Positions 4,244-44,303 of a DNA stretch of 58,718 bases are shown here, piece by piece (positions within the stretch are counted from its first letter, which is position 1; every line of letters begins with the position of its first letter). A model generated the notes under the pieces. It did no database searches, was not told the origin of the DNA, and saw nothing but the letters and a program-made list of their open reading frames with translations. The DNA is taken from contig JAHJVW010000084.1 in NCBI GenBank assembly GCA_018828585.1, positions 1-58,718 on the forward strand. Direction: 5' to 3'. The translations under genes were made by a program, and so were the position numbers. The DNA comes from Bacteroidota bacterium. GTDB taxonomy: Bacteria; Bacteroidota; Bacteroidia; Sphingobacteriales; Sphingobacteriaceae.

Positions 4244-6625
4244 TTAATTTTTCCATTTCCAATTTCTAACCTCCGGCATGTCCATGCCTTCTTTTCTGAT
4301 AAAGATCTTATGAGCTATGAGTTTATCCTGCATCTCTTGTTTGAGATGAGCGGTAGTGTTTTTTAACTGTGGTAACCTGTCTAAGGTATCGATTACTAAA
4401 TGAAACCTGTCCATATCGTTCAATACCGTCATATCAAAGGGCGTAGTTATAGTTCCTTCTTCTTTGTAGCCACGCACATGAAAGTTTACATGATTGGTTC
4501 GCTTATAGGTAAGCCTGTGAATAAGCCAAGGATAACCATGGAATGCAAATATTACCGGTTTGTCTTTCGTAAATAAGGTATCAAAGTCTTTATCATTTAA
4601 ACCATGAGGGTGTTCGGTTTCTGGTTGTAATTTCATTAAATCAACCACATTTACTACCCGCACTTTCAGTTCGGGCAATTTCTCGCGAAGGATAGCAACC
4701 GCAGCCAAGGTTTCTAGCGTAGGTACATCTCCAGCACAAGCCATAACTACATCGGGTTCTAAATTTTCATCGCTACTTGCCCAATTCCACATTCCAATAC
4801 CCTTGGTACAGTGTGTTACAGCTTTATCCATACTCAGCCACTGTGGCGCTGGGTGTTTACCTGCCACTACCACATTTACGTACTGCCTGCTACGGAAACA
4901 ATGATCCATCACGGATAACAAACAATTGGCATCTGGCGGTAGGTAAACACGTACTACCGATGCTTTTTTATTCATCACCACATCCAGAAAACCTGGATCT
5001 TGATGGGTAAAACCGTTATGATCCTGTCGCCATACATGCGATACCAAAAGAATATTTAGAGAGGCTATTTTTCTGCGCCAAGGTAAATGTGAAGTAACCT
5101 TCAACCATTTTGCATGCTGATTGAACATGCTGTCAATGATATGGATAAAGGCTTCGTAACAATTAAAAAGTCCATGCCTGCCGGTGAGTAAATACCCCTC
5201 CAGCCAGCCTTCACATTGATGCTCGCTCAGCATTTCCATTACCCGTCCTTCTTTTTTAAGAAAATCATCTGTATCAATTACAGGAGCTTCCCATTGGCGG
5301 TTGGTTGCTTCAAAAACAAAGTCTAGTTTGTTTGAGAGTGTTTCATCGGGTCCAAAAATCCGGAAGTTTCTTTGTTCGGTATTCTCTTTAATGATATCCC
5401 TGATAAATTTCCCGAGTACCAAAGTATCGCCCGGTCCCATTTCGCCACGTTTCATTTCAACGCCATATTCCCTAAAATCGGGCATGTGGAGATCCTGAAG
5501 TAAAAGTCCACCGTTAGCATGTGGATTATCTCCCATGCGGTGTTTGCCCAACGGTGCCAGTTCTTGTAGTTCACTTTTGAAACTGCCCTTTTCATCAAAT
5601 AATTCTTCAGGCTTATAACTTCTTAGCCATTCTTCTAATTGTTTTAAGTGGGCTGGATTTGTTGAAGGGTCTTTAATTGGGACTTGATGTGCCAGAAAAT
5701 TTCCTTCTATTTTTTTGCCATCTACATATTTAGGTCCTGTCCATCCTTTTGGGGATTTCAAAATAATCATTGGCCATTTAGGGCGAGCTAAATTTTCATC
5801 CTCGGAAGCGTTCTTTTTTATCTGTTGTATTTCTTCGATTACTTTATCCAGCAAAACCGCCATTTTTTGATGCATATCCATCGGATCATCGCCCTCAATA
5901 AAATAAGGTTTCCATCCATAACCTAAGAAAAGCTGTTCCAATTCTTCGTCGCCGATTCTTGCAAGCACCGTTGGGTTGGCAATTTTATACCCGTTCAGAT
6001 GAAGGATAGGCAGTACCGCACCATCAGTAACTGGGTTTAGGAACTTGTTGGAATGCCAAGCAGTAGCCAATGGCCCTGTTTCCGCTTCTCCGTCGCCAAC
6101 TACGCAGGAAACAATTAAATCTGGATTATCAAACGCAGCACCGAAAGCATGGCTAAGTGAATAGCCCAATTCACCACCTTCATGTATGGAGCCAGGGCAT
6201 TCGGGCGATACATGGCTGGGTATCCCACCCGGAAATGAAAATTGCGTGAAGAGCTTTTTTAGCCCTTCTTCATCCTGACTGATATTCGGATAAACCTCAC
6301 TGTAAGTACCCTCCAAATAAACATTGCCAACAATGGCAGGACCACCATGACCTGGACCGGAAACGTAGATCATGCTCAGATCGTATTTTTTAATGATCCT
6401 GTTGAGATGGACGTAGATGAAATTTTGACCTGGCGTTGTACCCCAATGCCCAAGCAACATATTTTTAATATGTTCCGGCTTTAAAGGTTCTTTTAAAAGT
6501 GGATTATCATGTAAATAAATTTGCCCGACAGAGAGATAGTTAGTGGCTCGCCAGTAAGCATCAATTTTATCCAACAGATCTGCTGATAAATTTTCTTTCG
6601 ATGTTTCTAAAGATTGTGTTTCCAT
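4244..6625 (-). CDS. xfp: Phosphoketolase (xylulose-5-P/fructose-6-P)
   Basis: Thiamine-diphosphate enzyme that splits xylulose-5-phosphate or fructose-6-phosphate with phosphate into acetyl phosphate plus glyceraldehyde-3-phosphate or erythrose-4-phosphate. At 793 aa it has the full family length. The N-terminal half has the [19 protein letters not shown] block and the TPP/Mg motif GDGEAETGP (~180). The C-terminal phosphoketolase domain ends with the usual [10 protein letters not shown]-type tail. The acetate kinase gene lies upstream in the same run (30 bp gap), so acetyl phosphate can be turned directly into ATP and acetate. Which sugar phosphate is preferred cannot be read from the sequence. 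Confidence 0.95.
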
Positions 6626-6655: not shown

Positions 6656-7861
6656 TTAAGGAGAGAGATTTGATTTTTGAGACTTATCGTGTAGTTTTTT
6701 TGTAACCGTCGCGATCATTATTTCTTCATCGGTAGGGATTACATACACCTTCACTTTGCTGTTCTTTGTTGAAATGATTTTTTCGCTTTTCCTGTTTTTC
6801 CTAGCATCTAACTCAATTCCCAGATAATTAAATCCTTCGCAGATACGCTTGCGTATCGACGGTGCATTTTCTCCAATACCGCCAGAAAAAACCAATACAT
6901 TAAGCCCACCCAAAGTTGCCGTGTAGGCTCCAATTGTTTTTCTGATCTGATAACAGAATATTTCAATAGTCAAGGCTACATCTTTATTACTTTTTTCATG
7001 TTCGAGTAAATCCTGCATGTTAGAACTATAGCCCGAAATGCCAAGCAAACCAGATTGATGATTGATTAGCTCATTAAATTCTTTTGCATCTAGTCCCTTT
7101 TGCATCAGATACCACGCCACACCAGGATCTAAATCGCCACTTCTTGTACTCATCACTACGCCTCCCGTTGGTGTAAAACCCATGCTGGTATCTAAGCATT
7201 TTCCTTTCTTCACCGCAGCAAGGCTGGCTCCGTTTCCCAAATGAGCGAGAATAACTTTCCCATTGGCCTCTGCTCGGTTTTGTTTTTTCAACTCTTTCAT
7301 CTGGTAGCTATAAGATATTCCATGAAATCCATAGCGCTTAACGCCCTCGGTATAATACTTTTTTGGGATGGCAAACATCCTAGCATATTTGGGCATCGTG
7401 GCATGAAACGAAGTATCAAAACAGGCTACCTGTATTACTTGCGGAAATTGCTTTTTAAATAATGCTATCATTTCAATTTCTGCCGGAAGATGATCTGGGT
7501 CATACTCCATTATTTTATGCAATTCCTGTAACAAGTTGTCATCAATAATTTTAGGTAGTGCATGCTCCATACCATGAACAATGCGATGCCCTATGCCAAC
7601 AATTCCTTCCACATATTTTTGCTCTTGTAGCCATTCCATTAAAGATTCGGCAGCTTCTTTAAAATTTGTTGCCTTTATTTTGATTTGATTTTGATCAGGA
7701 TTTAGCCTTTCGGTAACAGTAAATTCAGGATTATCCAAGCCTATTCTGCTTATTTGGCCAGAAATAATATTTTTTAATTTCTTATTGGTGTTGTACAGAG
7801 CAAACTTGATGCTGGACGAGCCACCGTTGATGATGAGGATATGTTGCTTTACGGATTTCAT
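6656..7861 (-). CDS. ackA: Acetate kinase
   Basis: Converts acetyl phosphate and ADP to acetate and ATP. The first signature NGGSSSIKF is near residue 15, the second (DTSFHATMP) near 149, and the C-terminal glycine-rich FSGGIGENAP block near 325; 401 aa is the usual length. It overlaps the HAD gene upstream by 4 bp and precedes xfp. No phosphotransacetylase gene is nearby, which fits use with phosphoketolase instead of with acetyl-CoA. Confidence 0.95.
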   Translation of the reverse strand: MKSVKQHILIINGGSSSIKFALYNTNKKLKNIISGQISRIGLDNPEFTVTERLNPDQNQIKIKATNFKEAAESLMEWLQEQKYVEGIVGIGHRIVHGMEHALPKIIDDNLLQELHKIMEYDPDHLPAEIEMIALFKKQFPQVIQVACFDTSFHATMPKYARMFAIPKKYYTEGVKRYGFHGISYSYQMKELKKQNRAEANGKVILAHLGNGASLAAVKKGKCLDTSMGFTPTGGVVMSTRSGDLDPGVAWYLMQKGLDAKEFNELINHQSGLLGISGYSSNMQDLLEHEKSNKDVALTIEIFCYQIRKTIGAYTATLGGLNVLVFSGGIGENAPSIRKRICEGFNYLGIELDARKNRKSEKIISTKNSKVKVYVIPTDEEIMIATVTKKLHDKSQKSNLSP

Positions 7862-8484
7862 AATTCGGTTTCAAATCCTAATGCGTTCAATTCTTTACAA
7901 GTTGTTTCATCGTTACTATGGAAAATACCATGAATGCCTAATCCTGCTGCAACCTTTACAAATACACCTACATCATCGATACAAAGGGTTTCCTGTGGTT
8001 GCGCCTGTGCCATATCTAATGCCAGTTTGTAAATATTAACATCGGGCTTTCTTAAATGAACATAAGTGGAGGAAACAAAAAAATCTATCAATTCGGTCAA
8101 CCGATATTCTTTAATTCTGTAAGTGTTTAATTCCCTTGCCTCGTTGCTTACGGCAACCATCTTTAGTTTATATCGCTTTTTAAGTCGTTTGAACAACTCA
8201 ATCATTTCCGTAAATGGCTGCGATTGGGAAAAGGTGAATTGTCTGAATTCGTTTTTAGAGAAATCTCGTGGCTCATAAAAAACGGTCATGTTCAGATACT
8301 CTTCCATTGTTAGCTTACCGAGTTCAAAAGTTTCGAATGCCATAGCATGTCTGGCTTCCATTTCATCTCTATTTAGATGAAATTTCTCAGACGCTAATTT
8401 TCGGGACTTGTGACCCCAACCTTTAGTGAGCAGTACACCGCCAATATCTAAGAAGAGTGTAGTTATATTTCTCGATTCCTTCAT
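7858..8484 (-). CDS. HAD-superfamily hydrolase
   Basis: Small cytoplasmic phosphatase-like protein, 208 aa. Motif I is FLDIGGVLL, a DxGGV variant in which the second Asp of DxDxT is absent, as in HAD-IA members of the YihX/epoxide-hydrolase N-terminal type. The motif III Lys lies in LRKPD (~140) and motif IV is CIDDV (~173). Coupled by a 4-bp overlap to acetate kinase. A sugar-phosphate or phosphoglycolate-like substrate would suit the context, but the sequence does not tell. Confidence 0.85.
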   Translation of the reverse strand: MKESRNITTLFLDIGGVLLTKGWGHKSRKLASEKFHLNRDEMEARHAMAFETFELGKLTMEEYLNMTVFYEPRDFSKNEFRQFTFSQSQPFTEMIELFKRLKKRYKLKMVAVSNEARELNTYRIKEYRLTELIDFFVSSTYVHLRKPDVNIYKLALDMAQAQPQETLCIDDVGVFVKVAAGLGIHGIFHSNDETTCKELNALGFETEL

Positions 8485-8860: not shown

Positions 8861-9082
8861 TTAATTAAGCTCTGTAATGGTGTAATGCGTATTTGTAAAA
8901 GCATTCTGAAGTGTCTTGGCATTAACTGCTACAGAAGAGGTTATTTCTGCTTGCTTATTTGCCAAGTCAACGGATACTGATGTCACATTTGGCGCAGCAG
9001 CTAATCTATTTTTAACTGATGAAACACATCCTCCGCAACTCATGCCGCCAATGTGAAAAGTATGCTTGATTGAATTTTCCAT
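8861..9082 (-). CDS. Heavy-metal-associated (HMA) copper chaperone
   Basis: 73-aa cytosolic protein with one HMA fold. The metal-binding loop is GMSCGGC with Cys16 and Cys19, followed by the usual VKNRL helix and the SVSVDLANKQAEI strand. CopZ-type proteins of this size bind Cu(I) and hand it to export ATPases. The CopB pump six genes downstream lacks CxxC in its own N-terminus, so this protein could supply the missing metal-binding function. First gene of the leftward copper/carbon run. Confidence 0.92.
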   Translation of the reverse strand: MENSIKHTFHIGGMSCGGCVSSVKNRLAAAPNVTSVSVDLANKQAEITSSVAVNAKTLQNAFTNTHYTITELN

Positions 9083-10303: not shown

Positions 10304-12640
10304 TTATTTCAAAAGATTTTGATTGGCCATCACTGCTGGTTTATGAAGAGATTTTGTTATAATTTTTGAGACCAGTGGCGAAACGGGGTTGCGTTTATCA
10401 CACACAGGTTCGTTTTTAATTGGTGCATATTTTTCTATTACTTGCCTTGCCAACAAATAACATAGGGTAGATTCTGCACCTTGGTTTATGTTGACATGGG
10501 TTTGCTCTAAGCCGTCATAACCTGCACCATTTGCCGGATTGTACATCACCTGACGCAGATGGTTGTTCCCCATAAACCAGCTAAAAGCGATTTTTAATTG
10601 ATCCTTGTATTTTCTTTTTTTGATTACTTGATAAAATAAATCGAGGGCTAAAATTGTATAAGCGATTTCAATGGGTTGTTCTCCAAAAAAATTGCGCTCA
10701 TTTCTTTTATGAAACCAACCCCTGTTAGAGATAACCTTTATTTGCCCCTTCATAAAATAGTTGGAAAGCAAAAAATCGAACGTTACGATAGCAATTTTTT
10801 TATAGCTCTCTTCTCCGATAATCAAATAAGCAAACATCATTGCTTCCGGTAGTACACTGTTGGCATAAGTTAAGTAGTCCTCGTACCAGCACCACTCAGG
10901 TTCTGTAGTCAACTGATAGCAGTTCATCAGTCTTTCTACCAGTATTTTAGCAAGTTGAACGGTTTTCTCATCCTTATAAAAACTGTGGTAATGGTATAAG
11001 CCTTTAAGCGCAAAGCTTATAGCTCTGGGAGAGGTAAGTTTTTCTATAGAAGAAATTGCTTTTTCCCAACAATATTCGGCTGTTGTAGTAATGGATTTAG
11101 GGAGAATAGTTTGTTGTGACAAAGTATATCCTAACGCCCACATTGCCCGTCCATTTGCATCTTCTAGGTTAACTTGATTGTTTTGAGGAGTGATTTGAAG
11201 CTTTATATCTACATAATTCTCAAACCATCCGTTGTCTTTCTGTACAAATTCGATAAAATTAAGGTAACGGTTAGCAAGTGCCAGCACAGTTGAGTCCTTG
11301 TTTTGGTTATAATGTGTTACCATCGCTATCAATGCTCTTGCATTATCATCAAGCGTGTACCCAGAATCTAAATCGGGCTGAGAGAAATCTGAAAATTGAA
11401 TGATGCCAAATGCAGTGGTCAATTCTCTGATATGTGATAAGTCAAAAGGTGGAAGTACGTAATCAAGATCTTCTGATTTGTTGGTGAGCTTACCAAAAAT
11501 AGTTGCATAGGCAATGGCCGCATTTTCCCAACAGAAAGCCCTTGTTTTTGATAATGCGCTTTTTCCAAGTTTTGTTCTCTTTTCCTTATTATCTAATAAA
11601 TCCATTATGGCAATCTCAAACTTTTCAGGGTTTTCAAATTCATCAAGTAAAACACCTGTGCCATCGTCAATCATCTCTACCGCATGTGGAATTGGTGTAC
11701 ATATCACGGGGCAACCGGCACTTTGTGCGTATGCAAATGTTCCGCTTACTGCCTGATAAGGGTCTTTTGAGGAAAAAAGGTATAAATCAGAAATATTCAA
11801 ATATTCAAGTAGGGTATTTAACGGTAAATATTCATTGATGAACTTTACGTGACCCTGAATTTTTAAGCTCGACGTAATTGCCTTCAATTTATTTCTGTAT
11901 TGTTCTCCGTCTCTTTTAAGCACTTCCGGATGTGTTTTTCCGAGTATAAGATATACCACATCAGGATGTGCTTTTATAACTTTAGGCAGTGCATGTAAAA
12001 TAGTTTCGATCCCTTTATTTTCGCTCAGCAGACCAAATGTGGATAGTATGGTATGATTTTCAAAACCATGTTTTTGCTTCAATCTTGCTTTGTCTTTCCA
12101 AAGAACAATATGAGTACCGTGAGGGATCACATAAATTTTATCGGCATTGCAAATATTTTGGTCAATCAGTAACTTTTTGGATTGGTTTGTAAGTACAATG
12201 ATTGCATCGGAGAGATCTGCGATGGCATGCATCACTTTAGCTCTTTTTTTGTCAAGATCGGGCAAAACAGTATGAAGGATAATTGCAATAGGCTTATTTG
12301 CCGCTAACATGAAAGGTATTAGATCATTGCCATATTCTCCGCCATAAAGCCCAAATTCATGTTGAATGCCTATCATTCCTATATCGCTACGCTCATTAAT
12401 ATCATCTACAATTTTTTGATATTGATTGGGTTGCGTTGTATTCAACACATACGATACTTCTTCTCCGTAGGCGATGGGTTCATCGTTATTTTGTAAGGCA
12501 CAAATCTCAATCGGAAGGCTCTCTCCAAAAATCTGGCTCATCGCATCTACCATATCATAACAAAAACTGGCAATTCCACATTCTCTTGGAGGGTAGGATG
12601 ATACCATTAGCATTTTAAGATTAGTGTTAGATGTTTTCAT
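10304..12640 (-). CDS. GT4 glycosyltransferase with C-terminal helical domain
   Basis: 778 aa. Residues 1-395 form a GT-B fold: the N-terminal SSYPPRECGIASF block, the FGLLSENKGIETILHALP strand-helix of the donor domain, and an Ex7E-like region near SSKDPYQAVSGTFAYAQSAG. Residues ~400-750 are a second, helix-rich domain with TLDDNARALIAM and repeated aromatic helices, resembling an alpha/alpha toroid of carbohydrate enzymes. Next to a GH130 enzyme, whose substrates are beta-mannosides, a mannosyl transfer role is likely (inference). No signal peptide, so it acts in the cytoplasm. Spacing to GH130 is 10 bp. Confidence 0.85.
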   Translation of the reverse strand: MKTSNTNLKMLMVSSYPPRECGIASFCYDMVDAMSQIFGESLPIEICALQNNDEPIAYGEEVSYVLNTTQPNQYQKIVDDINERSDIGMIGIQHEFGLYGGEYGNDLIPFMLAANKPIAIILHTVLPDLDKKRAKVMHAIADLSDAIIVLTNQSKKLLIDQNICNADKIYVIPHGTHIVLWKDKARLKQKHGFENHTILSTFGLLSENKGIETILHALPKVIKAHPDVVYLILGKTHPEVLKRDGEQYRNKLKAITSSLKIQGHVKFINEYLPLNTLLEYLNISDLYLFSSKDPYQAVSGTFAYAQSAGCPVICTPIPHAVEMIDDGTGVLLDEFENPEKFEIAIMDLLDNKEKRTKLGKSALSKTRAFCWENAAIAYATIFGKLTNKSEDLDYVLPPFDLSHIRELTTAFGIIQFSDFSQPDLDSGYTLDDNARALIAMVTHYNQNKDSTVLALANRYLNFIEFVQKDNGWFENYVDIKLQITPQNNQVNLEDANGRAMWALGYTLSQQTILPKSITTTAEYCWEKAISSIEKLTSPRAISFALKGLYHYHSFYKDEKTVQLAKILVERLMNCYQLTTEPEWCWYEDYLTYANSVLPEAMMFAYLIIGEESYKKIAIVTFDFLLSNYFMKGQIKVISNRGWFHKRNERNFFGEQPIEIAYTILALDLFYQVIKKRKYKDQLKIAFSWFMGNNHLRQVMYNPANGAGYDGLEQTHVNINQGAESTLCYLLARQVIEKYAPIKNEPVCDKRNPVSPLVSKIITKSLHKPAVMANQNLLK

Positions 12641-12650
12641 AGCTTAAGGA

Positions 12651-13712
12651 TTAGGCGTGTTTTTTCAATTCGTTTAAAAGCTCGTTCATGTTTACCAGAG
12701 CAACTGCTATTTTATGATCTGCCGAGCCATAATAAATGTATAAGTCATCTCCAAACTGTGCGGTTCCTGTAGGGAATACTACATGATTTACCACACCTTC
12801 AACCTCCCATTTTTCGGTTGGGGAGAAGAGGGGATAGGGCAATCGTGAAATTTCAATTTCGGGTTTATCTAATTGCAACAATGCGGCACCGGCGTGATAA
12901 GTTTTCCCAATAGTTGTTTCGCAAACTCCGTGGTAAATCAGCAACCATCCATCTTCGGTTTTGATAGGTGGGCATCCTGCCCCCAGGTAATTCACTTCAA
13001 AATCGTATTTTGGATCCATCACAATATGTGCGGTAAGATCTTTTAGATAATTTTCCCAAAACGGTTTGGTAAGCTCTGCCCAATCATCAAAATACACCAT
13101 CTGGATACCCGGCCAAATGCGGTGCAACAAAGCGAATTTTCCGTTAATTTTTTCTTGGAATAAAACGACATCCTTATCTCTTAGTAACCGCTGCTTATCG
13201 TCAGCTAATCCTATACTTTCAAAGAGTTTTGAATAATCATAATATTTTGGATTTAGTTTTTCTTGGTTACAGTGTTCCAAATGATATTTGTAGTCTTTAT
13301 AATTGATAGGTGGGGTAAAAATTCCTTTCTTTTCAAAATCCTTCAAATCTTTTGAAGTGGCAAGCGCACCCATTGCATTTATTCCATCGTAAGCCGTATA
13401 GGTTATATAATAGGTATCCTCTATTTTAACAATTCTAGGATCTTCTACGCCGTGTTTTTCAAAATCGTGTTCTATCACTACGAGGGGGCGTTTCAGCCGC
13501 TCTACGATATTTAAGGGGCCATCAGCTTTGGCGTAACCAATAGTAGAATAATTACCCTCTGCCACCGCCCGATAAAACAGGTGTACGTCATTACCGTCTT
13601 GGTAAACAGCAGGATTTAATATCCCATTATTTTCAAAGTCATTTTCAGTGGGGCTAAGTATAATTCCTTTTTTCTCTACGTTAACCATGTTCCTTATGTA
13701 AGAGGTGTCCAT
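12651..13712 (-). CDS. GH130 beta-mannoside phosphorylase/hydrolase
   Basis: 353 aa with a five-bladed-propeller GH130 pattern: LFYRAV (~46), HGVEDPRIV with the catalytic-type Asp (~88), YYITYTAYDG (~102) and YHAGAALLQLDKPE (~275). Family members cleave beta-mannosidic linkages by phosphate or water. It has no signal peptide, so it is intracellular, which favours a phosphorylase releasing mannose-1-phosphate. It lies between the type II GAPDH and GT4 genes. Phosphorylase and hydrolase subgroups cannot be separated by eye. Confidence 0.85.
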   Translation of the reverse strand: MDTSYIRNMVNVEKKGIILSPTENDFENNGILNPAVYQDGNDVHLFYRAVAEGNYSTIGYAKADGPLNIVERLKRPLVVIEHDFEKHGVEDPRIVKIEDTYYITYTAYDGINAMGALATSKDLKDFEKKGIFTPPINYKDYKYHLEHCNQEKLNPKYYDYSKLFESIGLADDKQRLLRDKDVVLFQEKINGKFALLHRIWPGIQMVYFDDWAELTKPFWENYLKDLTAHIVMDPKYDFEVNYLGAGCPPIKTEDGWLLIYHGVCETTIGKTYHAGAALLQLDKPEIEISRLPYPLFSPTEKWEVEGVVNHVVFPTGTAQFGDDLYIYYGSADHKIAVALVNMNELLNELKKHA

Positions 13713-13748: not shown

Positions 13749-14768
13749 TTAACTGTTAATACCCAAGCTTTTATTCGTTTTTTGGATAGACTTTTCCGCA
13801 TTTCCTTCAATACCAGTAAGCGCCCTTATAGCATCTATCGTTTCTGGGATCACAATGGCTTGGTTATCCACCACGTATGCATAAAAGAGTTCATCTCTCT
13901 CAACGGTCAGCATATCCTCCCAAAGAGCTACTTCGTACATATCTCCCCAAGGCCTGCCCATGTCTAGGTATTTTTCTTTAATGGTGTTATTGGATAACAA
14001 ACCATCTGAATAATTTATAAAAGTGATGCGGGTGGATAGTTTAAAAGCTTCCATCACTTCATCTTTGGAAGCTGTACGACTAAGTTTTACATTCCAGTAA
14101 TGCAGATGGCTTAAAGTTTCAGGCACTTTTACTGCCATGGTAATCACATCTAGTTCCGGATCCACACTTTTTGCATCAGGTCCTTGATGGCTTGGGATAT
14201 CTTTCTCTGGTACAAGCGTATTCATAATCCCACCCAAGTGACTTTCCCATGGGTCTGTAGCCCTGCGTAACAAAGTTCCTCGGGCGGTTTGTAAAAGTTT
14301 TGCTTTTTTTAGAGCTGTAAGCGTTCTTAGTATGGAGGTAGTATTACAGGAAACTACTCGGGTACTACCAAGGTTTAAAGCAGAAGCATAATTATTCTCT
14401 GCACTAAATGAATGGCCTGTAGTTTCATGTTTTTCTCCCCCTTGCAGAATGAACTTTATACCCAGCTCTTTATAGACTTCTATGTTTTCAGCGGCTATCT
14501 TTTTAGGCGTACAATCAACCACCAAATCTGATTTTATCAACAAATCATGCATCTTTCCAGAAACATTGATACCAGCCTTACTCATTTCGATAAGCGCACC
14601 TTCGTTAGCTGCATATATCGTATATCCTTTATTAATGGCAGTATGGATGCGCCAGTCGCTAATTACATCACAAACGCCAGATAATTCCATATCATACTGT
14701 AAGGCAATGGCATCCGCAACCCTTTTTCCAATTACACCGTATCCAATTAATGCTATTTTCTGTTTCAT
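13749..14768 (-). CDS. Type II (archaeal-type) glyceraldehyde-3-phosphate dehydrogenase
   Basis: 339 aa. Oxidises glyceraldehyde-3-phosphate to 1,3-bisphosphoglycerate with NAD(P)+. It matches the archaeal class rather than bacterial GapA: GYGVIGKRVADA Rossmann loop (9-20), DLVVDCTP (~81-88), QGGEKHE (~109-115), catalytic Cys141 in VVSCNTT, PSHQGPDAK near 196, TMAVKVP near 211, GRPWGDMYEVALWED near 277, and IVIPETIDAIRALTG near 309. The enzyme class is common in archaea and uncommon in bacteria. It is 3 bp from the K+ channel gene and 36 bp from GH130, inside a metal-resistance island, so it is likely a stress-time duplicate of the housekeeping enzyme. Confidence 0.93.
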   Translation of the reverse strand: MKQKIALIGYGVIGKRVADAIALQYDMELSGVCDVISDWRIHTAINKGYTIYAANEGALIEMSKAGINVSGKMHDLLIKSDLVVDCTPKKIAAENIEVYKELGIKFILQGGEKHETTGHSFSAENNYASALNLGSTRVVSCNTTSILRTLTALKKAKLLQTARGTLLRRATDPWESHLGGIMNTLVPEKDIPSHQGPDAKSVDPELDVITMAVKVPETLSHLHYWNVKLSRTASKDEVMEAFKLSTRITFINYSDGLLSNNTIKEKYLDMGRPWGDMYEVALWEDMLTVERDELFYAYVVDNQAIVIPETIDAIRALTGIEGNAEKSIQKTNKSLGINS

Positions 14769-14771: not shown

Positions 14772-15326
14772 TTATTGATTTTTTATAGTAGTATGTATAT
14801 TATTAATATTAGAAAGCCCAAAAACTACCATTACAAAACTTTGCCCTATTTCTAAAATGACCAATAGCCTTGCAGGAACAGTTACAGGGACTAGGTCTCC
14901 GTAGCCAATAGATGCGAACGTGACCACACTGAAGTAGAAATACTCGAACAATTTTTCGGCATAAGTGACAGCCATTTGTCTCCCCTTAAAAGAACCGGGA
15001 TGAGCGGCCGCTAAACAAGTAAAATCCGCAGCAAAAGAAAAGATGATTAAGAACACCAACAGTCCAAAAACCCACAAGAGTTGGCCAAATGAATGACATT
15101 GTTTAATAGATTTATTTACCTGCCTGAAAGTGAAAAAAGTAAAATAGATAGTTTTGACTAGTGCCAATGAAATAACCAAATAGGGAATCCAAGGGAGGTT
15201 ATGGTCAAGAAACTGCATCAAATAAATATATACGAGTGCTATAAGAACAAGCAAGACCACGGTGTGGCTAATTTGTTCCCACAAATGCAATAAAAAAGAA
15301 CCAGCCGATTTTGATTTATTTACCAT
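14772..15326 (-). CDS. Two-pore-helix-type potassium channel
   Basis: 184-aa inner-membrane protein with hydrophobic segments at about 23-40, 47-66, 84-106 and 150-170. The pore loop before the last segment carries the selectivity filter (S-I-GYGD, 141-144; VTFASIGYGDLVPVT). It has no RCK or cyclic-nucleotide domain, so gating is not evident. It overlaps the MFS gene upstream by 11 bp. It may control membrane potential during stress (inference). Confidence 0.88.
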   Translation of the reverse strand: MVNKSKSAGSFLLHLWEQISHTVVLLVLIALVYIYLMQFLDHNLPWIPYLVISLALVKTIYFTFFTFRQVNKSIKQCHSFGQLLWVFGLLVFLIIFSFAADFTCLAAAHPGSFKGRQMAVTYAEKLFEYFYFSVVTFASIGYGDLVPVTVPARLLVILEIGQSFVMVVFGLSNINNIHTTIKNQ

Positions 15327-16644
15327 TGCCGGAAGGATTTATTGTTACGTTATTTTTTATTGGCTCTGTAGATTTTCTGATAAAATAGTTTTTTACCTTA
15401 AAACCATTTTCTGATAAATTATTTAAACCCACAAGGGCAGTAGCGACAAGCAATCCCCCCGTAAAATAAAAAGGAGAAGAAGGGTTAATTATATACAAAG
15501 CGGTACCGGTTAAAGGCCCCAATATTTGCCCGATCCCTCCAAAGGAAGATTGCATCCCTATAGCCCAGCCTGATGAATTCTCTTCTTTTAAGGATATGAT
15601 TGCCAATAAATTGGGGATTACCATTGAAGCCCCTAAGCCGAAGAGCACTATGACAAGGAGAATAATTATTTTTGAATCGATGAGCACAAATACTGGCAGT
15701 GTGAGGCCAACAATCAGAAAGCCAATAGCAATCTGTTTCTCAGGATTTTGAATGATTAATGTTCCCCATTTGGCAACAACTGGTTGCAGAACAGACATCA
15801 CCAAACCACAAATTAACAGACCTGCGCCCACAAATGCGATTGAAAAACTACCGCTATCTTTAATGAAAAGTGGAAAAACGCTCTCAAAGGAAGTGATACC
15901 CAACTGAATAATAAGGGATAAGAACAAAAGTCTTCTGAAAGATTTCCATTTACCCGATGGAAATAACGCATCGCTCTGGTTGCTTTTTGTTTCTACAACC
16001 TTTTGTTTTTTGTTTTTGAGAAATACCAGAGCAACAACTAATGTTACTAAACCTAATGTAGCTAGTGCCAGAAAAGGAACATTGAAACGATCGAACATGA
16101 TATGGATGGATTGCAGCCTAAGATGAAGATCGCTCTGTATCAGTAACCCACTTATTCCGGGACCTATTACCACGCCAGCACTTACTGCGGTACCTGCCCA
16201 TGCCATCGCTTTAGTACGTTCTTCTTTTTTGGTTATTGCCGAAATGTTGGCGATGATGACCGGAACCAGAAAAGCGGAAAGCAAGCTTCCCAAAATTCTT
16301 GCAACGTAAAGCATCGTTAAGGTAGTACTAAAAGCAATGATGACCTGCATTAATGTAAAACCTGCTAATCCTAACAAAATAGGCATTTTTGCCCCAGTCC
16401 GATCAGCAATTCTTCCCCAAAAAGGAGCTGTAAAAACCAATGCTACCGGATAAATGGCTGTAAGTATCCCGAAATGGAAAGCAATGTTTTCCTGAGAGGT
16501 GGGTTCCGAAATTAACCTTTCTATAAAAAAAGGAAGTACAGGCAACAATACCCCGTAGCCGATCATCACCACGAAAAGACCCATCATGGAAATCAGCAAA
16601 TTGCTATTTATCTTTTTCATGAATCTGGGAGTACTTACAGTCAT
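15316..16644 (-). CDS. MFS transporter
   Basis: 442 aa with twelve predicted membrane segments and the MFS loop 2-3 signature (FWGRIADRTGAKMPI, ~75-90). The central loop (~215-232) is Lys-rich. Similar to drug/metabolite exporters of the MFS-1 group; substrate unknown. Start M1 lies 28 bp after the USP stop. An alternative start, MKKINSN, lies 8 codons in (16620) and would remove a polar leader. Confidence 0.88.
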   Translation of the reverse strand: MTVSTPRFMKKINSNLLISMMGLFVVMIGYGVLLPVLPFFIERLISEPTSQENIAFHFGILTAIYPVALVFTAPFWGRIADRTGAKMPILLGLAGFTLMQVIIAFSTTLTMLYVARILGSLLSAFLVPVIIANISAITKKEERTKAMAWAGTAVSAGVVIGPGISGLLIQSDLHLRLQSIHIMFDRFNVPFLALATLGLVTLVVALVFLKNKKQKVVETKSNQSDALFPSGKWKSFRRLLFLSLIIQLGITSFESVFPLFIKDSGSFSIAFVGAGLLICGLVMSVLQPVVAKWGTLIIQNPEKQIAIGFLIVGLTLPVFVLIDSKIIILLVIVLFGLGASMVIPNLLAIISLKEENSSGWAIGMQSSFGGIGQILGPLTGTALYIINPSSPFYFTGGLLVATALVGLNNLSENGFKVKNYFIRKSTEPIKNNVTINPSGNGK

Positions 16645-16672: not shown

Positions 16673-17140
16673 TTAATCTTCTTTTTTTACGTCTCGTGTG
16701 CGTACAATTTCTACAGAACATTTAGCGTGTAACGCTACCGCCTGCGAAACTGAGCCTAGCAAAAACCTTTCGAACCCGCTACGCCCATGTGGCCCAACTA
16801 CTATCAGATCGGCATTAAAAGCATCCGCCTCGTCTAAAATGACTTCTTTTGCTGATCCTTCCAATACTGCAGTAGTTATCGATAGCGTTTTATTTGTTGA
16901 ACCAATCAGCTCGGCCGCTGTTTCAACAGCTTCCCTTGCCGCTTTTCTTGCGGTCAGTTCCATTTCCTGATAATAATTTTCCATCCCACCCATTGGTAAG
17001 GGTGCGTATGCGTATATAGACGGATTTTCAAAAACAGAGATGATTCTTAATTCCGTATTTGGTAGAAAAGGTCTGCCTGCTATTTCTTCAACGGCCGCTA
17101 CACTATGTTGCGATCCATCTGTTGCTAATAATATTTTCAT
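16673..17140 (-). CDS. Universal stress protein
   Basis: 155-aa single UspA domain. It starts with ILLATDGSQHS and ends with the ATP-binding pattern G-x2-G-x9-G-S (VVGPHGRSGFERFLLGSVS). ATP-binding Usps are induced in growth arrest, low oxygen and other stresses. It lies between the outer-membrane protein gene (20 bp) and the MFS gene in one leftward run. Confidence 0.93.
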   Translation of the reverse strand: MKILLATDGSQHSVAAVEEIAGRPFLPNTELRIISVFENPSIYAYAPLPMGGMENYYQEMELTARKAAREAVETAAELIGSTNKTLSITTAVLEGSAKEVILDEADAFNADLIVVGPHGRSGFERFLLGSVSQAVALHAKCSVEIVRTRDVKKED

Positions 17141-17160: not shown

Positions 17161-18375
17161 CTATTTGATATATCCATGTTCGAGGTTTAAAATTGAATTC
17201 CTGTCATCAAACTGGTTATTGAATATTTTATTGAATGTATAGGCAATTCCCATCTGAAAACGTTGTTGGTTATTTCCTAACAAGGGTTTTAATTCCCCAT
17301 TATTTTGATTGTACTTGTATTGTACAAGTAAATCGAAATTGTTGCCAATGCGATAAAATGCATTGGAAATCAGCATCCACTGTTTGGTATCATTACCAAT
17401 ATCAGAAAAGGTTTTATAACCAACGCCCGCAGAGATTTGATACCTAGGCCTTTCTAACTTACGATTTAAGTAGCGTAGCATTCCAAAAACGGCAGTACTT
17501 TTAGTACGGCTGTAACTGGTATAATCCATAATGTCCTTTACATCCTTTAATCCAAAATTCTTAACAGCTTGTATTTTGAAATCAATAAAATGTACCGGAT
17601 CTGGTAAAAGATTAAAGGTGGCAGTTGCAAGCAGATTGGTGAGTGTTTTTTTCTGGCCATTATTTAAATCAACAGGTGTATTGATGAAGTTATTAACGCT
17701 AAATCCCACCTGCTGCAATACATTCCGGTTCCATACCTGACTTTGAGGCATACGATACAGGACAGAACCGCCCAATCCATTGATACCAAGCTGGCTGGGG
17801 TTTTGAAAATCAGCATAATTCTCCCCATGAAAAGTGACATAAAACCTTTGCCCTAAAATATGTGTATATTCTATTACATTGGCATATTGATTATCCTGGC
17901 TATTAATGCCACCCGAAAAAGGATTGAGTACGTAGTTGTATTGGATTGCATCATCATCCCTGAAAGTAGAAAATTGAGCAAGCGTAGATTGAGAGGTACT
18001 CCGTCCCAGTTTAATAATATTCTTCTGGTTTTCTACTTTTAGCATCACCTGATTATAGAACACCTGGCCTAAACCAGAGTTCACATCGGGAAAGGTTAAA
18101 CCCATTACCATTTGGCCACGCCAGCCACGGTACAACTTTTGGCTTACCCCCAACATCAAATACGAATCAGAAAAATCTGAGAGCACTTGATCACCTTCGT
18201 TTAAGATAGGGATATTTAATGACGCATTCCCTTTATTATTGTAATAATTTCCAGTAGTGATAGTTTTAAATCCAATTTCTATCTGGGGTAAAACCTCTTC
18301 TCCCTCACTTTGCGCTTTCGCCGTATAGGTTGAGCCCAGCAAAACCAACAGCGGTATAAAAAAAATATTTCTCAT
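17161..18375 (-). CDS. Outer-membrane beta-barrel protein, unknown
   Basis: 404 aa from the ATG at 18375. An upstream in-frame ATG at 18417 would overlap the oxidase stop and add 14 polar residues before the signal peptide (MRNIFFIPLLVLLGSTYTAKAQ), so the later start is chosen. The mature chain has many amphipathic strands of alternating aromatic and polar residues and ends close to an aromatic-terminated strand, as in outer-membrane barrels. No family recognised. It lies 25 bp after the multicopper oxidase gene, which suggests a metal-related outer-membrane role. Confidence 0.75.
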   Translation of the reverse strand: MRNIFFIPLLVLLGSTYTAKAQSEGEEVLPQIEIGFKTITTGNYYNNKGNASLNIPILNEGDQVLSDFSDSYLMLGVSQKLYRGWRGQMVMGLTFPDVNSGLGQVFYNQVMLKVENQKNIIKLGRSTSQSTLAQFSTFRDDDAIQYNYVLNPFSGGINSQDNQYANVIEYTHILGQRFYVTFHGENYADFQNPSQLGINGLGGSVLYRMPQSQVWNRNVLQQVGFSVNNFINTPVDLNNGQKKTLTNLLATATFNLLPDPVHFIDFKIQAVKNFGLKDVKDIMDYTSYSRTKSTAVFGMLRYLNRKLERPRYQISAGVGYKTFSDIGNDTKQWMLISNAFYRIGNNFDLLVQYKYNQNNGELKPLLGNNQQRFQMGIAYTFNKIFNNQFDDRNSILNLEHGYIK

Positions 18376-18400
18376 TATTTTAAATTTTATATCTGAAATT

Positions 18401-19678
18401 TTATTCGTCCAAAGCAATTTTTGGCAGCTTATCTTCGCCGAACATCATTTTTTTCATGTCCATACTTTTATCTTTCATGTCCATTCCTTCGTGACCTTCC
18501 ATATTGTCCATTCCCTTAAACATGTCGTTTCCGCTATGTTTAGAGATGATGAGTTCTTCTGGAGGTAAATCTTCATAAACCAATGCCAATAGATTACCGC
18601 CTGGGTAAAGACCATTATTGGTTACCTTTCTGGTATCATGATCATGAAAAGTCCAGATTCCCCTGTTATTGCCTTCGATAATTATATCATAGGTTTTGCC
18701 AGGTGTAAGCGGCACTGTATTTCGTTGCCAAGGTTGAGGCAACGGAATTCCATCGTCTGCTACCATCCAAAAATCATGTCCATGCAGGTGTAGATGATGA
18801 TCAACTGAACCCGCATTTATCAATCTTACCCTTATTTTTTCTCTGGATTTAATAAACAGATAAGGAGTGTCAGGATATGATTTTCCGTTTACCGTAAACC
18901 AGTTAGATTCTGGTAAATTAGCAGGAGACCTACGCGAAAGTGCATAAGGAGGCTCATATCCATTTTTCATGGACTCCTCCAGTTGCTTTCTGTTATCAAA
19001 AACCGACCAGCGTTCATGCTCAAAACGTCCTTCTTTCATCAAATAGCTACGTTCCTTCATGCGGGTTAGCATTCGGTTCATCTCTGTTCTAATGAAATTC
19101 ACATCATGAGAGGAGTAAACCAAAGTATATTCTCTTTCATAATTGAACTGCTTTTTGATAGGGTCATTTGGGTCTTCTATAATCAAGCTACCGTACATTC
19201 CCGCTTGCATGTGCATTAGTGTACCCCAATGGCAATGGTAAAAATGCGTTCCAACGGGTTTTGCTTCAAATTCATAAACGAATTCATTATCAGGCATTAC
19301 CGGGAGTTGAGTTACAAAAGGCACCCCATCCATACGCCATGGCACATGGATGCCATGCCAGTGAATGGTATGATTTAAGCCAGTTTTGTTCTTAAACTTT
19401 ACCCTCACTTTATCGCCATATTGCACCCTAATTTCTGGGCCTGGGATCATATCATTGAACGCGAGCGTATGATATTGAAAACCGGGAGCGGGTTCATGAA
19501 TTTTAATGTCTAAGTAAAGTTCAAACTCTTTCCATTCACCAACTTTTTTAAAAGGGATGGGATCAGGAAACTTTGATGGTGCATTTAATTTTGCTTCTTT
19601 TGCTAAAAGATCTCCCGGAAAAAATACGACTCCAGCAGTGCTTAAAGCACCAGTTGCTAAAAATTTACGTCTGTCCAT
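18401..19678 (-). CDS. Two-domain multicopper oxidase with type 1 site in domain 1
   Basis: 425 aa. The N-terminus MDRRKFLATGALSTAG is a Tat-type signal (Arg-Arg plus hydrophobic stretch), so the folded enzyme is probably exported. Domain 1 has IHWHG (H106, H108) and HCHWGTLMHMQAGM, giving C149, H156 and M161 as type 1 copper ligands. Domain 2 has HLHLHG (H297, H299) and HDH (H345, H347); its Cys position is Asp, so only domain 1 holds a type 1 site. This matches the type C two-domain laccase-like layout. A Met/His-rich tail (~384-412) probably binds Cu(I). Likely role: oxidation of Cu(I) or phenols in the periplasm. Confidence 0.9.
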   Translation of the reverse strand: MDRRKFLATGALSTAGVVFFPGDLLAKEAKLNAPSKFPDPIPFKKVGEWKEFELYLDIKIHEPAPGFQYHTLAFNDMIPGPEIRVQYGDKVRVKFKNKTGLNHTIHWHGIHVPWRMDGVPFVTQLPVMPDNEFVYEFEAKPVGTHFYHCHWGTLMHMQAGMYGSLIIEDPNDPIKKQFNYEREYTLVYSSHDVNFIRTEMNRMLTRMKERSYLMKEGRFEHERWSVFDNRKQLEESMKNGYEPPYALSRRSPANLPESNWFTVNGKSYPDTPYLFIKSREKIRVRLINAGSVDHHLHLHGHDFWMVADDGIPLPQPWQRNTVPLTPGKTYDIIIEGNNRGIWTFHDHDTRKVTNNGLYPGGNLLALVYEDLPPEELIISKHSGNDMFKGMDNMEGHEGMDMKDKSMDMKKMMFGEDKLPKIALDE

Positions 19679-19683: not shown

Positions 19684-19980
19684 TTATTTTTTATTGAAAT
19701 GTTTATTATTTTTTATTGAAATGTTATAAAAGCCGGCTATACATGCACCCAATAGCCAGCCGAGAATAAATGTTTCTACCAGTCCAATTCCGGCTTCCCA
19801 TAATGGGATATCCATTCGGATGATAGTCGAAACATCAAGACCATGCAATAGGCTGTTAAAGAATTTTACAGACCCTTCTGGACCAGCGGTCGTCATCACT
19901 AACATACAGCCCAAATAAAGCAAGGCGATGGTAATGCCAACTGCTAAACCAAATTTTTTGACATTAATGGTGCTATTCAT
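19684..19980 (-). CDS. DUF5676 family membrane protein
   Basis: 98 aa with two membrane helices (~12-32 and ~64-88) joined by a loop with KFFNSLLHGLD, the typical DUF5676 block. Often seen beside copper-resistance genes; no function known to me. Five bp before the oxidase gene and overlapping the preceding small gene by 8 bp. Confidence 0.8.
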   Translation of the reverse strand: MNSTINVKKFGLAVGITIALLYLGCMLVMTTAGPEGSVKFFNSLLHGLDVSTIIRMDIPLWEAGIGLVETFILGWLLGACIAGFYNISIKNNKHFNKK

Positions 19981-20228: not shown

Positions 20229-21017
20229 CTACAGAGAGATAAAAGGCCCAGCATTTGTAAAAGGACTTCTTCTCCCTCTAATATCACGATCAACATGAGA
20301 CCTTGCAGAAGCCGACGGACTTCGCCAAACCGATGCAGCCAACAAAGCCGAAGAATGCTTTTTGTTATTCTTATTCAGTTCATCCTGCGCTGCCTTTGGT
20401 TGCTCTTTTTCTGTCGTTTCATCTTGCCCAGTCAAATGCTCATGAGCTTCTTTAGCAGTGGTTGCACATGCGTTACAGTGCTCCATTTCTGAAGTTGTAT
20501 TTCCGTGTAAATCTTCCGCTACGGCATGGCAAGCATTTGCATTTATTTCTGAAATTTGCTTGGCATAACTGCTTTTTAAACTTATCAATTCTGCTGTTAA
20601 GCTCGATAAAATGGCACATTCTTCCTGCGTAACCAAAAAGTGTTGTTTTTCCTTTGCCTCCTGCTCTTGTGCTTCCAACGCTTGATAAATTTCAATGGTT
20701 TCTTTGGCACAGGCTCTACATGCTTCCGCACATTCTTTACAATGATCCATTCCCATTGCTACATGTTTTTCACATTCTGCTGCACAGGCATTACAAATGG
20801 CGGCACATAGCTGGCAAAGCTCTTTTGAGTAAGCACCTTCTATACTCATCAATTCTGCTGCAGCCTTACAAATTGCTGCACATTCCAAATCAAGTCTTAT
20901 GCAATTGGTAAGATTTTTTACATTTTCTTCTTCTAGACAGGATATGGCACAATAGTTACAAGTAGTGGCACAGGCTATGCAGGCATCTACACAATTTTTT
21001 ATTTGTTGATGGGTCAT
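20229..21017 (-). CDS. Csp-like four-helix copper-storage protein with extra half-repeat
   Basis: 262 aa from the ATG at 21017; the longer frame from 21050 would overlap the SHOCT gene and add a basic leader. Residues 1-112 form the DUF326/Csp four-helix bundle with about 18 Cys in CxxC/CxxxC spacing, which in characterised Csp proteins line the bundle and bind many Cu(I) ions. Residues ~125-205 resemble the second half again (TAELISLKSSYAK against AAELMSIEGAYSK), but most Cys are lost. The last ~40 residues are Arg/Ser-rich with no similarity to the rest. No signal peptide, so storage would be cytosolic. Confidence 0.85.
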   Translation of the reverse strand: MTHQQIKNCVDACIACATTCNYCAISCLEEENVKNLTNCIRLDLECAAICKAAAELMSIEGAYSKELCQLCAAICNACAAECEKHVAMGMDHCKECAEACRACAKETIEIYQALEAQEQEAKEKQHFLVTQEECAILSSLTAELISLKSSYAKQISEINANACHAVAEDLHGNTTSEMEHCNACATTAKEAHEHLTGQDETTEKEQPKAAQDELNKNNKKHSSALLAASVWRSPSASARSHVDRDIRGRRSPFTNAGPFISL

Positions 21018-21036
21018 GATCTTAATTTTTATGTGA

Positions 21037-21249
21037 TTACTTCTGTTCAATCAATTTCTTCTTCTCTTCGTATTCTTCCTTTTGAATTTCCCCTGCGGCA
21101 AATCGTCTCTTCAAAATATCTAAAGGAGTGTTCTTTTTAGTTCGCTGACCGGGGATATCCCATGGTGTAGCAAAAATCCATATTAACATAATCACCCAGA
21201 AGAACCACCATACCAGGTGCATACCTCCAACATTTCCATAATGAATCAT
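21037..21249 (-). CDS. Small SHOCT-domain membrane protein (copy 2)
   Basis: 70 aa; a hydrophobic Trp-rich helix (~8-26) is followed by FATPWDIPGQR and a SHOCT domain (PLDILKRRFAAGEIQKEEYEEKK). It is a clear paralogue of 8525-8779, with the membrane half most conserved. It lies 19 bp before the Csp gene start. Confidence 0.8.
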   Translation of the reverse strand: MIHYGNVGGMHLVWWFFWVIMLIWIFATPWDIPGQRTKKNTPLDILKRRFAAGEIQKEEYEEKKKLIEQK

Positions 21250-21869: not shown

Positions 21870-22463
21870 TTATTGTTTGAAATTATGTGGAATTAAGTTT
21901 TGTAAGTGAATCCGTTCCGGTACAGGGTTGTTTTTGTATTCTCGAGGTGTTTTTCCGGTTTCGCGTTTAAAGTGAGTGCTGAAATTCTGAGAAAAGCTAA
22001 AACCCAGTAACCAGGCTATTTCGGCAATATCCATCTCATTTAATATGAGTAACTCTTTAGCCTTTTCAACCTTCAGCCTAACGAAGTACCGCTCAATAGT
22101 TATAGTTGTTACCTTTTTAAATACTGCACTTAAATGCTTATAGCTTTTATGGAGCTGCGTTGATAAATAATCTGAAACAGTAAGTGCTTTTTCTTTAGCC
22201 ATCAAGTATTCATTAAGATAGGTTACCAGTAATGTTTGAATATCGACCGCAAGTTTTTCATCCACAGATAAAGCAAGGGCAAAGCCATGTTTCTCCAGAT
22301 TTTGCTCCAGTTTTTCCTGTAGCTCTTTGGTTATCGCTTTTTCAAGAATCACTTCCCCCAAATTAACCTCAAGCGAAGGCAAACCTGTTTGTTCAAATAT
22401 TCTTCTTACCTCTACGATGCACCTGCCACAGCACATATTTTTTATATTTAATTGGGTTTTCAT
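21870..22463 (-). CDS. AraC-family regulator with N-terminal HMA-like metal site
   Basis: 197 aa. The N-terminus MKTQLNIKNMCCGRC (Cys11, Cys12, Cys15) followed by a beta-alpha-beta pattern resembles a heavy-metal-associated domain of about 65 residues. Residues ~80-185 form an AraC-type double helix-turn-helix (ERYFVRLKVEKAKELL, MDIAEIAWLLGFSFSQNFSTHFKRETGKTPREYK). The fusion suggests direct Cu(I) sensing coupled to DNA binding. It is the first gene of the long leftward copper/metabolism run and is the best candidate for its regulator. DNA target not identified. Confidence 0.85.
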   Translation of the reverse strand: MKTQLNIKNMCCGRCIVEVRRIFEQTGLPSLEVNLGEVILEKAITKELQEKLEQNLEKHGFALALSVDEKLAVDIQTLLVTYLNEYLMAKEKALTVSDYLSTQLHKSYKHLSAVFKKVTTITIERYFVRLKVEKAKELLILNEMDIAEIAWLLGFSFSQNFSTHFKRETGKTPREYKNNPVPERIHLQNLIPHNFKQ

Positions 22464-26591: not shown

Positions 26592-26630
26592 TGTTATATC
26601 GTTTTAAACTATTATTATATCTGTTGTTTA

Positions 26631-27365: not shown

Positions 27366-27385
27366 AATTCTATTGCTATTAAACC

Positions 27386-28633: not shown

Positions 28634-28643
28634 TGTTCTTGGA

Positions 28644-37374: not shown

Positions 37375-37442
37375 TTTTCCTTTTCTTAAAATCCGACTTT
37401 GGAAGATTTTTTTTAATTTCCCGACTGACTTCGGAAGGTAGG

Positions 37443-37477
37443 GCAAGATCCGTTTGTGTCACAAACGTACATCTTGC
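37443..37477. other. Candidate origin of transfer (oriT)
   Basis: A nearly perfect inverted repeat: gcaagatc-cgtttgtg (37443-37458) and cacaaacg-ta-catcttgc (37460-37477) around a single base. It lies directly upstream of mobC and the relaxase, the usual position of oriT in Bacteroidota mobilisable elements. The nick site is not known. Confidence 0.5.
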
Positions 37478-44087: not shown

Positions 44088-44233
44088 TTCTTTAATTTTT
44101 AATACATGGATTGTTTTAAATTTATTTTTCAAAACAGTTCGCAGGAAAATCAAAAAAGTGATTCATATGAATACATTTCAGTCTAAATATTATTCTGTAA
44201 AATTCAGTTTTACAGATAGTTAAACCATTCTCC

Positions 44234-44276: not shown

Positions 44277-44303
44277 ATGACAGGTAGATTATGATGTACT
44301 AAG

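Follow-up and report, generated by a model that had tools for sequence, protein, structure and literature searches.

We find that a Bacteroidota bacterium of the family Sphingobacteriaceae carries, on a stretch of 58,718 nucleotides (the window, by which we mean the whole stretch of DNA that was analysed), a gene whose sequence is that of a type II glyceraldehyde-3-phosphate dehydrogenase (GAPDH) with intact catalytic residues. Its setting is a mobile copper-resistance island that unites genes for a copper exporter, an oxidase and mobility, and this context supports a copper- or stress-specific role. Our main reading, to which we give an even chance, is that the protein would be a spare, NAD+-using GAPDH isozyme serving a sugar-to-ATP route while Cu(I) blocks the native GAPDH.

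Sequence features of the type II GAPDH

The gene occupies positions 13749 to 14768 on the minus strand and encodes 339 amino acids; the interval given by the earlier sequence-only reading proved exact, and frame 1 of the plus strand over the same interval contains many stops. Two type II models match near the full length of the open reading frame (ORF) with scores above their cut-offs, NF003251 (437 bits, cut-off 185) and TIGR01546 GAPDH-II_archae (319.5 bits, cut-off 232.9). The protein also matches, near full length, the structures of four archaeal GAPDHs, at E values of 1e-64 to 1e-80. The Pfam view is a weaker pair, Gp_dh_C and DapB_N. The assignment to the archaeal class, made at the outset from five quoted motifs, is borne out, as all five are present in the translation and both type II models are exceeded. 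Among the matches of the protein at E 0.001 the type I domain PF00044 (Gp_dh_N) is absent, and the type I motif SCTTN is likewise missing from it, with SCNTTS in its place.

In an alignment of 119 island-type proteins with three archaeal type II enzymes (PDB 1cf2, 2czc and 2yyy, the GAPDHs of M. fervidus, P. horikoshii and M. jannaschii), the catalytic Cys140, His219 and the phosphate-site pair Arg167/168 are invariant in every row. The roles of these residues, and of Lys33, are presumably those known from the M. fervidus enzyme; Cys141 of the window protein corresponds to its Cys140, and Asp34 to archaeal Lys33. The island-type proteins differ from the archaeal enzymes in forming a mobile bacterial clade, in 31 positions that are consistently unlike the three archaeal sequences, and at Lys33, a residue of the NADP site in all three archaeal enzymes that every one of the 119 island-type proteins replaces with Asp. 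An acidic residue at that coenzyme site usually indicates NAD+ use. The window enzyme is thus predicted, most likely, to use NAD+, and such a preference would probably make it catabolic; the substitution bears on coenzyme choice and leaves family membership unaffected. A structure model of the window protein, built with 24 sequences, is of low confidence (mean pLDDT 65.8, residues 110–140 and 164–220 below 50); in it Asp34 closes the second strand (27–34), a region that is well scored.

Organization of the island

The GAPDH gene belongs to a run of eleven minus-strand ORFs extending from 21050 to 10304, with gaps of −17 to 37 nt. The run begins with a Cys-rich protein (20229..21050; DUF326; TIGR04401, 31 bits against a cut-off of 100), which is weakly Csp1-like and perhaps a copper store, followed by a 72-aa ORF, a DUF5676 protein with two transmembrane segments (19684..19980; PF18926), a multicopper oxidase (18401..19678; PF07732/PF07731), a 418-aa protein lacking any Pfam or NCBIfam match (17161..18417), a universal stress protein (Usp; 16673..17140; PF00582), an MFS transporter (15316..16644; PF07690; nearest NCBIfam models Tet-type and far under cut-off) and an ion channel of the K+ channel type (14772..15326; PF07885), which ends 3 nt upstream of the GAPDH gene. 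On the other side, 36 nt downstream, lies a GH130 mannoside phosphorylase family protein (12651..13712; PF04041, 155 bits; below the cut-offs of the three listed NCBIfam models), and the last gene encodes a GT4 glycosyltransferase with a long C-terminal part (10304..12640; PF00534). The placement of the GAPDH gene between a GH130 gene and an ion channel is therefore as first described. DUF5676 is a hallmark of related islands (20/20 at 20 kb). From gene spacing only, we infer operons and co-transcription in the window, with the oxidase and the GAPDH in one predicted transcription unit. Relatives of both the GH130 and GT4 genes (10304–13712) occur at 6 of 80 other loci, and other islands have glycogen phosphorylase or GH65 in their place; a sugar store used by phosphorolysis may recur among islands.

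A second minus-strand run, from 8779 to 3211, comprises an 84-aa ORF, a HAD phosphatase (7858..8484; PF00702), an acetate kinase (6656..7861; TIGR00016, 387 bits, cut-off 293), a phosphoketolase (4244..6625; XFP domains; NF003619, 1456 bits, cut-off 962) and a class I, metal-independent, fructose bisphosphate (FBP) aldolase (3211..4239; NF033379, 492 bits, cut-off 250). A copper-translocating P-type ATPase with an HMA domain (487..3084; TIGR01511, 614 bits, cut-off 397) lies 126 nt beyond the end of this run. Also on the minus strand are an HMA-domain protein resembling copper chaperones (8861..9082; PF00403), an AraC-type regulator (21870..22463; PF12833) that is conserved in related islands (relatives at 42 of 81 neighbourhoods, window counted) and, by domain matches, a block of Zn/Cd-type P-ATPase, ZIP, CusB-like adaptor and CusA–CusC fusion genes (24549..33032). 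The description as a metal island thus stands, the copper ATPase, the oxidase and CusB/CusA all being in the window. In the fusion (28644–33032, minus strand) a CusA-type RND pump and a CusC-type outer membrane factor form a single 1462-aa ORF (ACR_tran and OEP). The window also contains a 175-nt direct repeat of 71% identity (8580–8754 and 21056–21230) spanning small paralogous ORFs (8525–8779 and 21037–21249), a family found in 50 of 81 neighbourhoods, window counted.

Mobility genes include a relaxase and MobC of a mobilizable element (36410..37446, minus strand; PF03432, PF19514), a tyrosine integrase in two ORFs (42834..44153, minus strand; PF00589, PF13102, PF17293) beside a tRNA-Pro (44380–44454), and an HTH_17 protein among them; the relaxase, MobC, integrase pieces and adjoining tRNA agree with the island having been called mobile. 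A second integrase piece lies across the tRNA-Pro from the split integrase (window 42834–45257), and a YhcG/DUF1016 nuclease family protein lies close to the integrase (41914–42834). A remnant resembling a tRNA 3′ end (44616–44637) occurs once in the genome. The direct-repeat search found the 3′ ends of the tRNA-Pro and of this remnant once each, in a draft genome whose contig ends may hide a copy.

Distribution and phylogeny

A search of 60 genomes found the gene in 2 of them; with the own genome counted, the genus has one carrier among 18 genomes and the family two among 37. In a phylum sample, again with the own genome counted, 18 of 395 genomes exceeded the cut-off. Named genomes encode relatives at 135 stretches, the best 80 of which were used for locus counts; 78 of these 80 carry Bacteroidota names, at 76–83% identity. 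The plasmid collection contains 37 records with a type II GAPDH match, 17 of them conjugative by MOB-suite. Of 23 plasmid regions read, 21 fall in the island clade, and they come from Bacteroidota, Pseudomonadota, Actinomycetota and Deinococcota. A scan of viral contigs returned zero relatives. The early statement that the enzyme is uncommon in bacteria is therefore right as a rate (18 of 395 phylum genomes), though relatives do occur at 135 stretches and on 37 plasmid records.

Of 124 rows collected, 77 entered the phylogenetic reconstruction, the Bacteroidota loci L021–L082 (62 in all) having been thinned by number with the loss of 47. All 72 island-type proteins join in a single clade, which a branch 2.29 changes per column long (support 96/99) separates from the archaeal proteins, three in number, and from a pair of distant bacterial ones. 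Archaea are represented by three sequences only, and the long-branch rows L125 and L126 are unsure. The window GAPDH is sister to the copy of a Sphingobacteriales MAG (93/85) within a Bacteroidota group (100/96). L002, the second carrier in the window's family, groups instead with a gene from a Pontibacter plasmid (100/95). The Flavobacteriaceae group (100/100) includes two copies from genomes with another family and class label (L097 and L100) and a copy from a Cyclobacterium MAG (L020), for which there is binning doubt.

The distribution and the tree support the view that this pattern is what repeated transfer would look like. Spread by transfer, proposed earlier from gene context, is upheld by the low frequency in the genus (1/18) and family (2/37), by the two family carriers lying in different supported clades and by the plasmids of four phyla. 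Grouping with a vertically inherited Bacteroidota clade had been named as evidence against transfer; the protein does group with Bacteroidota, but within a horizontally moving set. A lone archaeal transfer was considered separately and rejected, as the tree contains one bacterial clade in which the nearest relatives are from Bacteroidota. The tacit picture of a lone archaeal gene gives way to membership of a large bacterial clade, well removed by its long branch from the three archaeal sequences in the tree, and the window GAPDH does not look like one of recent archaeal origin.

Two island copies labelled Thalassovita (L013) and Wenzhouxiangella (L017) are nested in Bacteroidota clades and are probably binning errors. 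The distant type II GAPDHs (30–33% identity) are from a Bradyrhizobium plasmid (L125, 1–10999), where the neighbours are aconitase-like, isocitrate lyase/PEP mutase family, nucleotidyltransferase and ribose-phosphate diphosphokinase genes, and from a Streptomyces plasmid (L126), where a ribose-phosphate diphosphokinase gene is a neighbour; both contexts are perhaps biosynthetic clusters.

Association with copper genes and energy metabolism

Each island was compared with the surroundings of the best type I GAPDH from the same genome as a control. The 20-kb test covered 20 of 38 genomes, picked by going down the list with arbitrary omissions, and short contigs (two 8-kb controls and two genomes of the 20-kb test) make the control space slightly smaller. 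A copper-type ATPase, oxidase or Cus gene lay within 20 kb in 20/20 islands and in 0/20 native-GAPDH controls. Taken singly, and comparing 20 islands with 20 controls, the counts were 20 versus 0 for copper-type ATPase, 18 versus 0 for multicopper oxidase, 14 versus 0 for CusA/B, 18 versus 0 for class I aldolase, 17 versus 0 for NDH-2 and 0 versus 0 for class II aldolase. Within 8 kb, 38 island–control pairs gave 32 versus 0 for class I aldolase, 38 versus 0 for Usp and 10 versus 0 for any copper-type gene; across all 80 Bacteroidota loci, class I aldolase was found at 66, Usp at 74, a copper-type gene at 19 and NDH-2 at 63. Phosphofructokinase (PFK) showed no preference for islands (12 versus 15 controls at 20 kb, 16 versus 33 at 8 kb).

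Neither phosphoketolase nor acetate kinase was found in any of the 20 islands at 20 kb, so this branch of the window is unusual among these islands. Across the wider set, phosphoketolase occurs at 1/80 loci and 4/21 plasmid loci, and acetate kinase at 3/80 and 1/21; genes annotated as xylulose 5-phosphate 3-epimerase (L119, L129, L138) were left out of the phosphoketolase count, as the window phosphoketolase matched none of them at threshold. The full enzyme set of the window is atypical of related loci.

A family-model sample, drawn so that selection would not depend on similarity, consisting of the nine best-scoring genomes of the 395-genome phylum search and having no matched control, showed metal-type genes within 20 kb in 8/9 genomes, most at 25–39% identity to the references; the ninth genome offered a contig of only 14 kb. 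At the identities seen in this sample (ATPase 35–38%, RND 33–39%), other metals or drugs are possible substrates.

Two further genes recur in 18 of the 20 islands each: an archaeal-type nucleoside/AMP phosphorylase (as in L045, 13551–15053; TIGR02645, 602 bits, cut-off 434.6) and a PRPP-synthetase-like gene (as in L049, 15060–15953).

Aldolase class and native enzymes of the hosts

The window aldolase (3211..4239) is the sole PF00274 match in its own genome, which holds one class II aldolase on a separate contig and has no match to the DeoC-type class I aldolase of other islands. By the family model, class II aldolase is present in 20/20 hosts, and in every case its gene is over 20 kb away from that of the type II GAPDH or on a different contig. 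A DeoC-type class I aldolase occurs in 18 of the 20, and all 18 have a copy within 20 kb of the type II GAPDH; one host genome has a second copy. A search with one class II reference found none in the 80 loci (8 kb), the 20 islands (20 kb), the 21 plasmid loci or the window. Class I aldolase, present in the window, occurs at 3/21 plasmid loci. Three class I types have been recruited: a long PF00274 form (window), a short PF00274 form (Corynebacterium) and DeoC/LacD (Flavobacteriaceae, Meiothermus). That a metal-independent aldolase class was taken up repeatedly is, in our view, what most strongly suggests metal stress rather than a general demand for more glycolysis; this pattern fails in the family-model sample, where the class I references matched in 0/9 genomes.

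Type I GAPDH is kept in 38/38 host genomes and in the own genome, which has two such genes. The motif SCTTNC is present in 39 of 40 type I GAPDHs compared (two from the own genome and one from each of the 38 others), the exception being an own-genome copy (L084) with SCTTNN. In 119/119 type II proteins SCNTT is followed by S, A or G, so that these enzymes lack the second active-site Cys that most type I enzymes have, as does L084. Lower copper sensitivity is not assured by this difference, since the catalytic Cys and His, both capable of binding Cu(I), are retained.

Plasmid loci

A metal ATPase, multicopper oxidase or Cus-type gene lay within about 10 kb at 18/21 plasmid loci, compared with 2/12 distant 21-kb tiles taken as controls from six of those plasmids. 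The loci of Pontibacter and Phenylobacterium count only through an RND pump or a less specific ATPase, and in the vicinity of those of Methylophaga, Acidovorax and Croceicoccus nothing matched a metal ATPase, an oxidase or a Cus protein. On an Agrobacterium conjugative plasmid the type II GAPDH gene adjoins cueR and a metal ATPase, and on two Corynebacterium plasmids it sits between CopA–DUF305 and an annotated fructose bisphosphate aldolase (PF00274 in the one scanned). Annotation tables, which are incomplete for these plasmids, list carbohydrate, fermentation or nucleotide-phosphorolysis genes at 17/21 loci. The stretches read from Hoeflea, Agrobacterium, Ciceribacter and Mycolicibacterium (the last short on one side) have copper genes and no annotated fermentation or sugar genes.

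Regulatory sequences

Scans for regulatory sites identified no copper operator. FNR-type boxes numbered 0 in 99.6 kb of Bacteroidota island intergenic sequence, against 1.0 expected and 1 in controls, and 1 at the plasmid loci, against 0.1 expected. The palindrome ATGAT-N4-ATCAT, whose core TGAT-N4-ATCA we take to be the FNR box core, was counted 14 times across 40 island stretches, mostly at a single homologous position close to the AraC gene, against one occurrence across 40 controls. A perfect palindrome, TTCCGATA-N2-TATCGGAA, lies 106–124 bases ahead of RND genes in 10/40 islands (L190, L192, L195, L197, L200, L203, L204, L206, L211 and L212) and in 0/40 controls, which makes it a candidate metal operator; it does not occur in the window, where the best site has 4 mismatches. 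TGAAA-N6-TTTCA is found 35 times in island stretches and 4 times in controls, with no enrichment in the window. Part of the enrichment of these palindromes is plain descent.

Proposed role and alternatives

We propose that the island pairs copper export and oxidation genes with enzymes that would be independent of the native GAPDH and of a metal-dependent aldolase. Cytosolic Cu(I) would inhibit the native type I GAPDH; the class I aldolase and the type II GAPDH would replace the native steps, and in the window the phosphoketolase–acetate kinase branch could turn acetyl phosphate into ATP without GAPDH. The spare enzymes would in this way sustain the flow of sugar to ATP and NADH, and the pumps would stay fed under high copper. 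Such target replacement would act alongside efflux, the steps that lead from sequence to copper tolerance being inferred. The accessible part of a study of Staphylococcus aureus describes Cu(I) binding to and inhibiting GapA, and a 2.2 to 2.3 fold increase of the Fda aldolase (PMC6350627). This copper-inhibited type I GAPDH is the kind of target that the island enzyme would replace; the account, as far as accessible, is one of damage and adaptation with no replacement enzyme (PMC6350627). The same source reports that extra gapA gave no rise in copper tolerance (PMC6350627), which counts against our main reading. So does the closeness of the partners, as within 8 kb Usp (74/80) and NDH-2 (63/80) are tighter companions of the type II GAPDH than copper-type genes (19/80).

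These tighter partners point to the main rival, a module for low oxygen or energy stress like the lxa locus of Burkholderia, in which GAPDH II would lead to fermentative ATP in hypoxia and the copper genes would be co-located through a common habitat. We consider this reading less likely than our main one, and both roles may hold at once. As described in the accessible parts of two reports, the lxa locus of Burkholderia cenocepacia resembles the islands in combining Usps with genes of central metabolism and stress in a single block (PMC9104464, PMC6127331), with transport genes and six Usps in all (PMC9104464); the likeness is at the level of this description of lxa, and neither 'glyceraldehyde' nor 'copper' appears in the accessible text of one of them (PMC6127331). 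Several companions of the island GAPDH would suit such a module: Usp in 20/20 islands, MBL/beta-CASP in 19, AMP-phosphorylase-like and PRPP-synthetase-like genes in 18 each, NDH-2 in 17 and D-lactate-dehydrogenase-like genes in 12, each with 0/20 in controls. On plasmids, an arginine deiminase pathway adjoins the GAPDH in Roseovarius and Sulfitobacter, pyruvate:ferredoxin oxidoreductase is found in Phenylobacterium and acetate kinase in Acidovorax. The FNR-like ATGAT-N4-ATCAT sites (14 versus 1) and the single plasmid FNR-type box (0.1 expected) lean the same way, but the Bacteroidota islands lack FNR-type boxes, a group that may use another site. Metal genes, moreover, equal Usp in constancy at 20 kb, and the Hoeflea, Agrobacterium, Ciceribacter and Mycolicibacterium loci have the copper genes without annotated fermentation or sugar genes.

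A harmless passenger carried near selected copper genes would explain the patchy spread (2/37 family genomes) and the native GAPDH in 38/38 hosts. This seems improbable to us, given that 119 diverse copies, including those on plasmids of four phyla, all retain the catalytic Cys and His and the Arg pair, and that sugar and energy enzymes persist beside the type II GAPDH while other neighbours change. The same conserved residues argue against another aldehyde substrate, which would mean an enzyme using, for example, sugar phosphates from the neighbouring phosphorylases or making a metabolite. The 31 positions that differ from archaea and the seemingly biosynthetic clusters around the Bradyrhizobium and Streptomyces homologues are in its favour; islands often carry PFK or FBP aldolase, which lead to the usual GAPDH substrate, and we think this reading very improbable.

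GAPDH–MFS (ArsJ) pairs are known in arsenate resistance, and the ArsJ–GAPDH system combines a dedicated MFS exporter with an arseno product; like the island, it places an additional GAPDH on an element for resistance to a metal or metalloid. An MFS gene does lie one gene from the window GAPDH, but we give very little credence to an arsenate route in which the enzyme would form 1-arseno-3-phosphoglycerate for export by that MFS protein, since the ArsJ-associated model NF033735 does not match the window GAPDH (and scores an Agrobacterium relative at 21 bits against a cut-off of 450), the best models of the MFS protein are Tet-type, its relatives occur at 4/98 other loci, many with short flanks, and none of the window ORFs scanned matched an arsenic family. 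The best 25 of the 36 NCBIfam matches of the MFS protein include no model named ArsJ.

Copper resistance has mostly been described as export, oxidation and storage. We found no literature on a copper/type II GAPDH island of this kind, which is weak evidence of novelty, as most subscription journals lie outside the coverage of the search. A type II GAPDH is annotated in an accessory element of Pseudomonas aeruginosa, in bin20 with a PFGI-1-class ICE relaxase; this is a table annotation only, and 'copper' is absent from the accessible main text (PMC7448275).

Returning to the spare, NAD+-using isozyme under copper stress, we advance its generalization more tentatively, as somewhat less than an even proposition: that plasmids and islands of at least four phyla confer metal resistance by target replacement, spare central metabolism taking over from enzymes stopped by Cu(I). 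The spare set would consist of the type II GAPDH, often a class I aldolase, and sometimes phosphoketolase, acetate kinase and sugar phosphorylases. If this is true, plasmid genes labelled merely 'type II GAPDH' would gain a function, and the strategy would resemble the kind of drug resistance in which the cell gains a second target enzyme that the drug does not affect. If the islands do carry insensitive replacements, resistance to copper would be partly metabolic and plasmid-borne, and the replaced steps would mark the enzymes that copper hurts in the wild.
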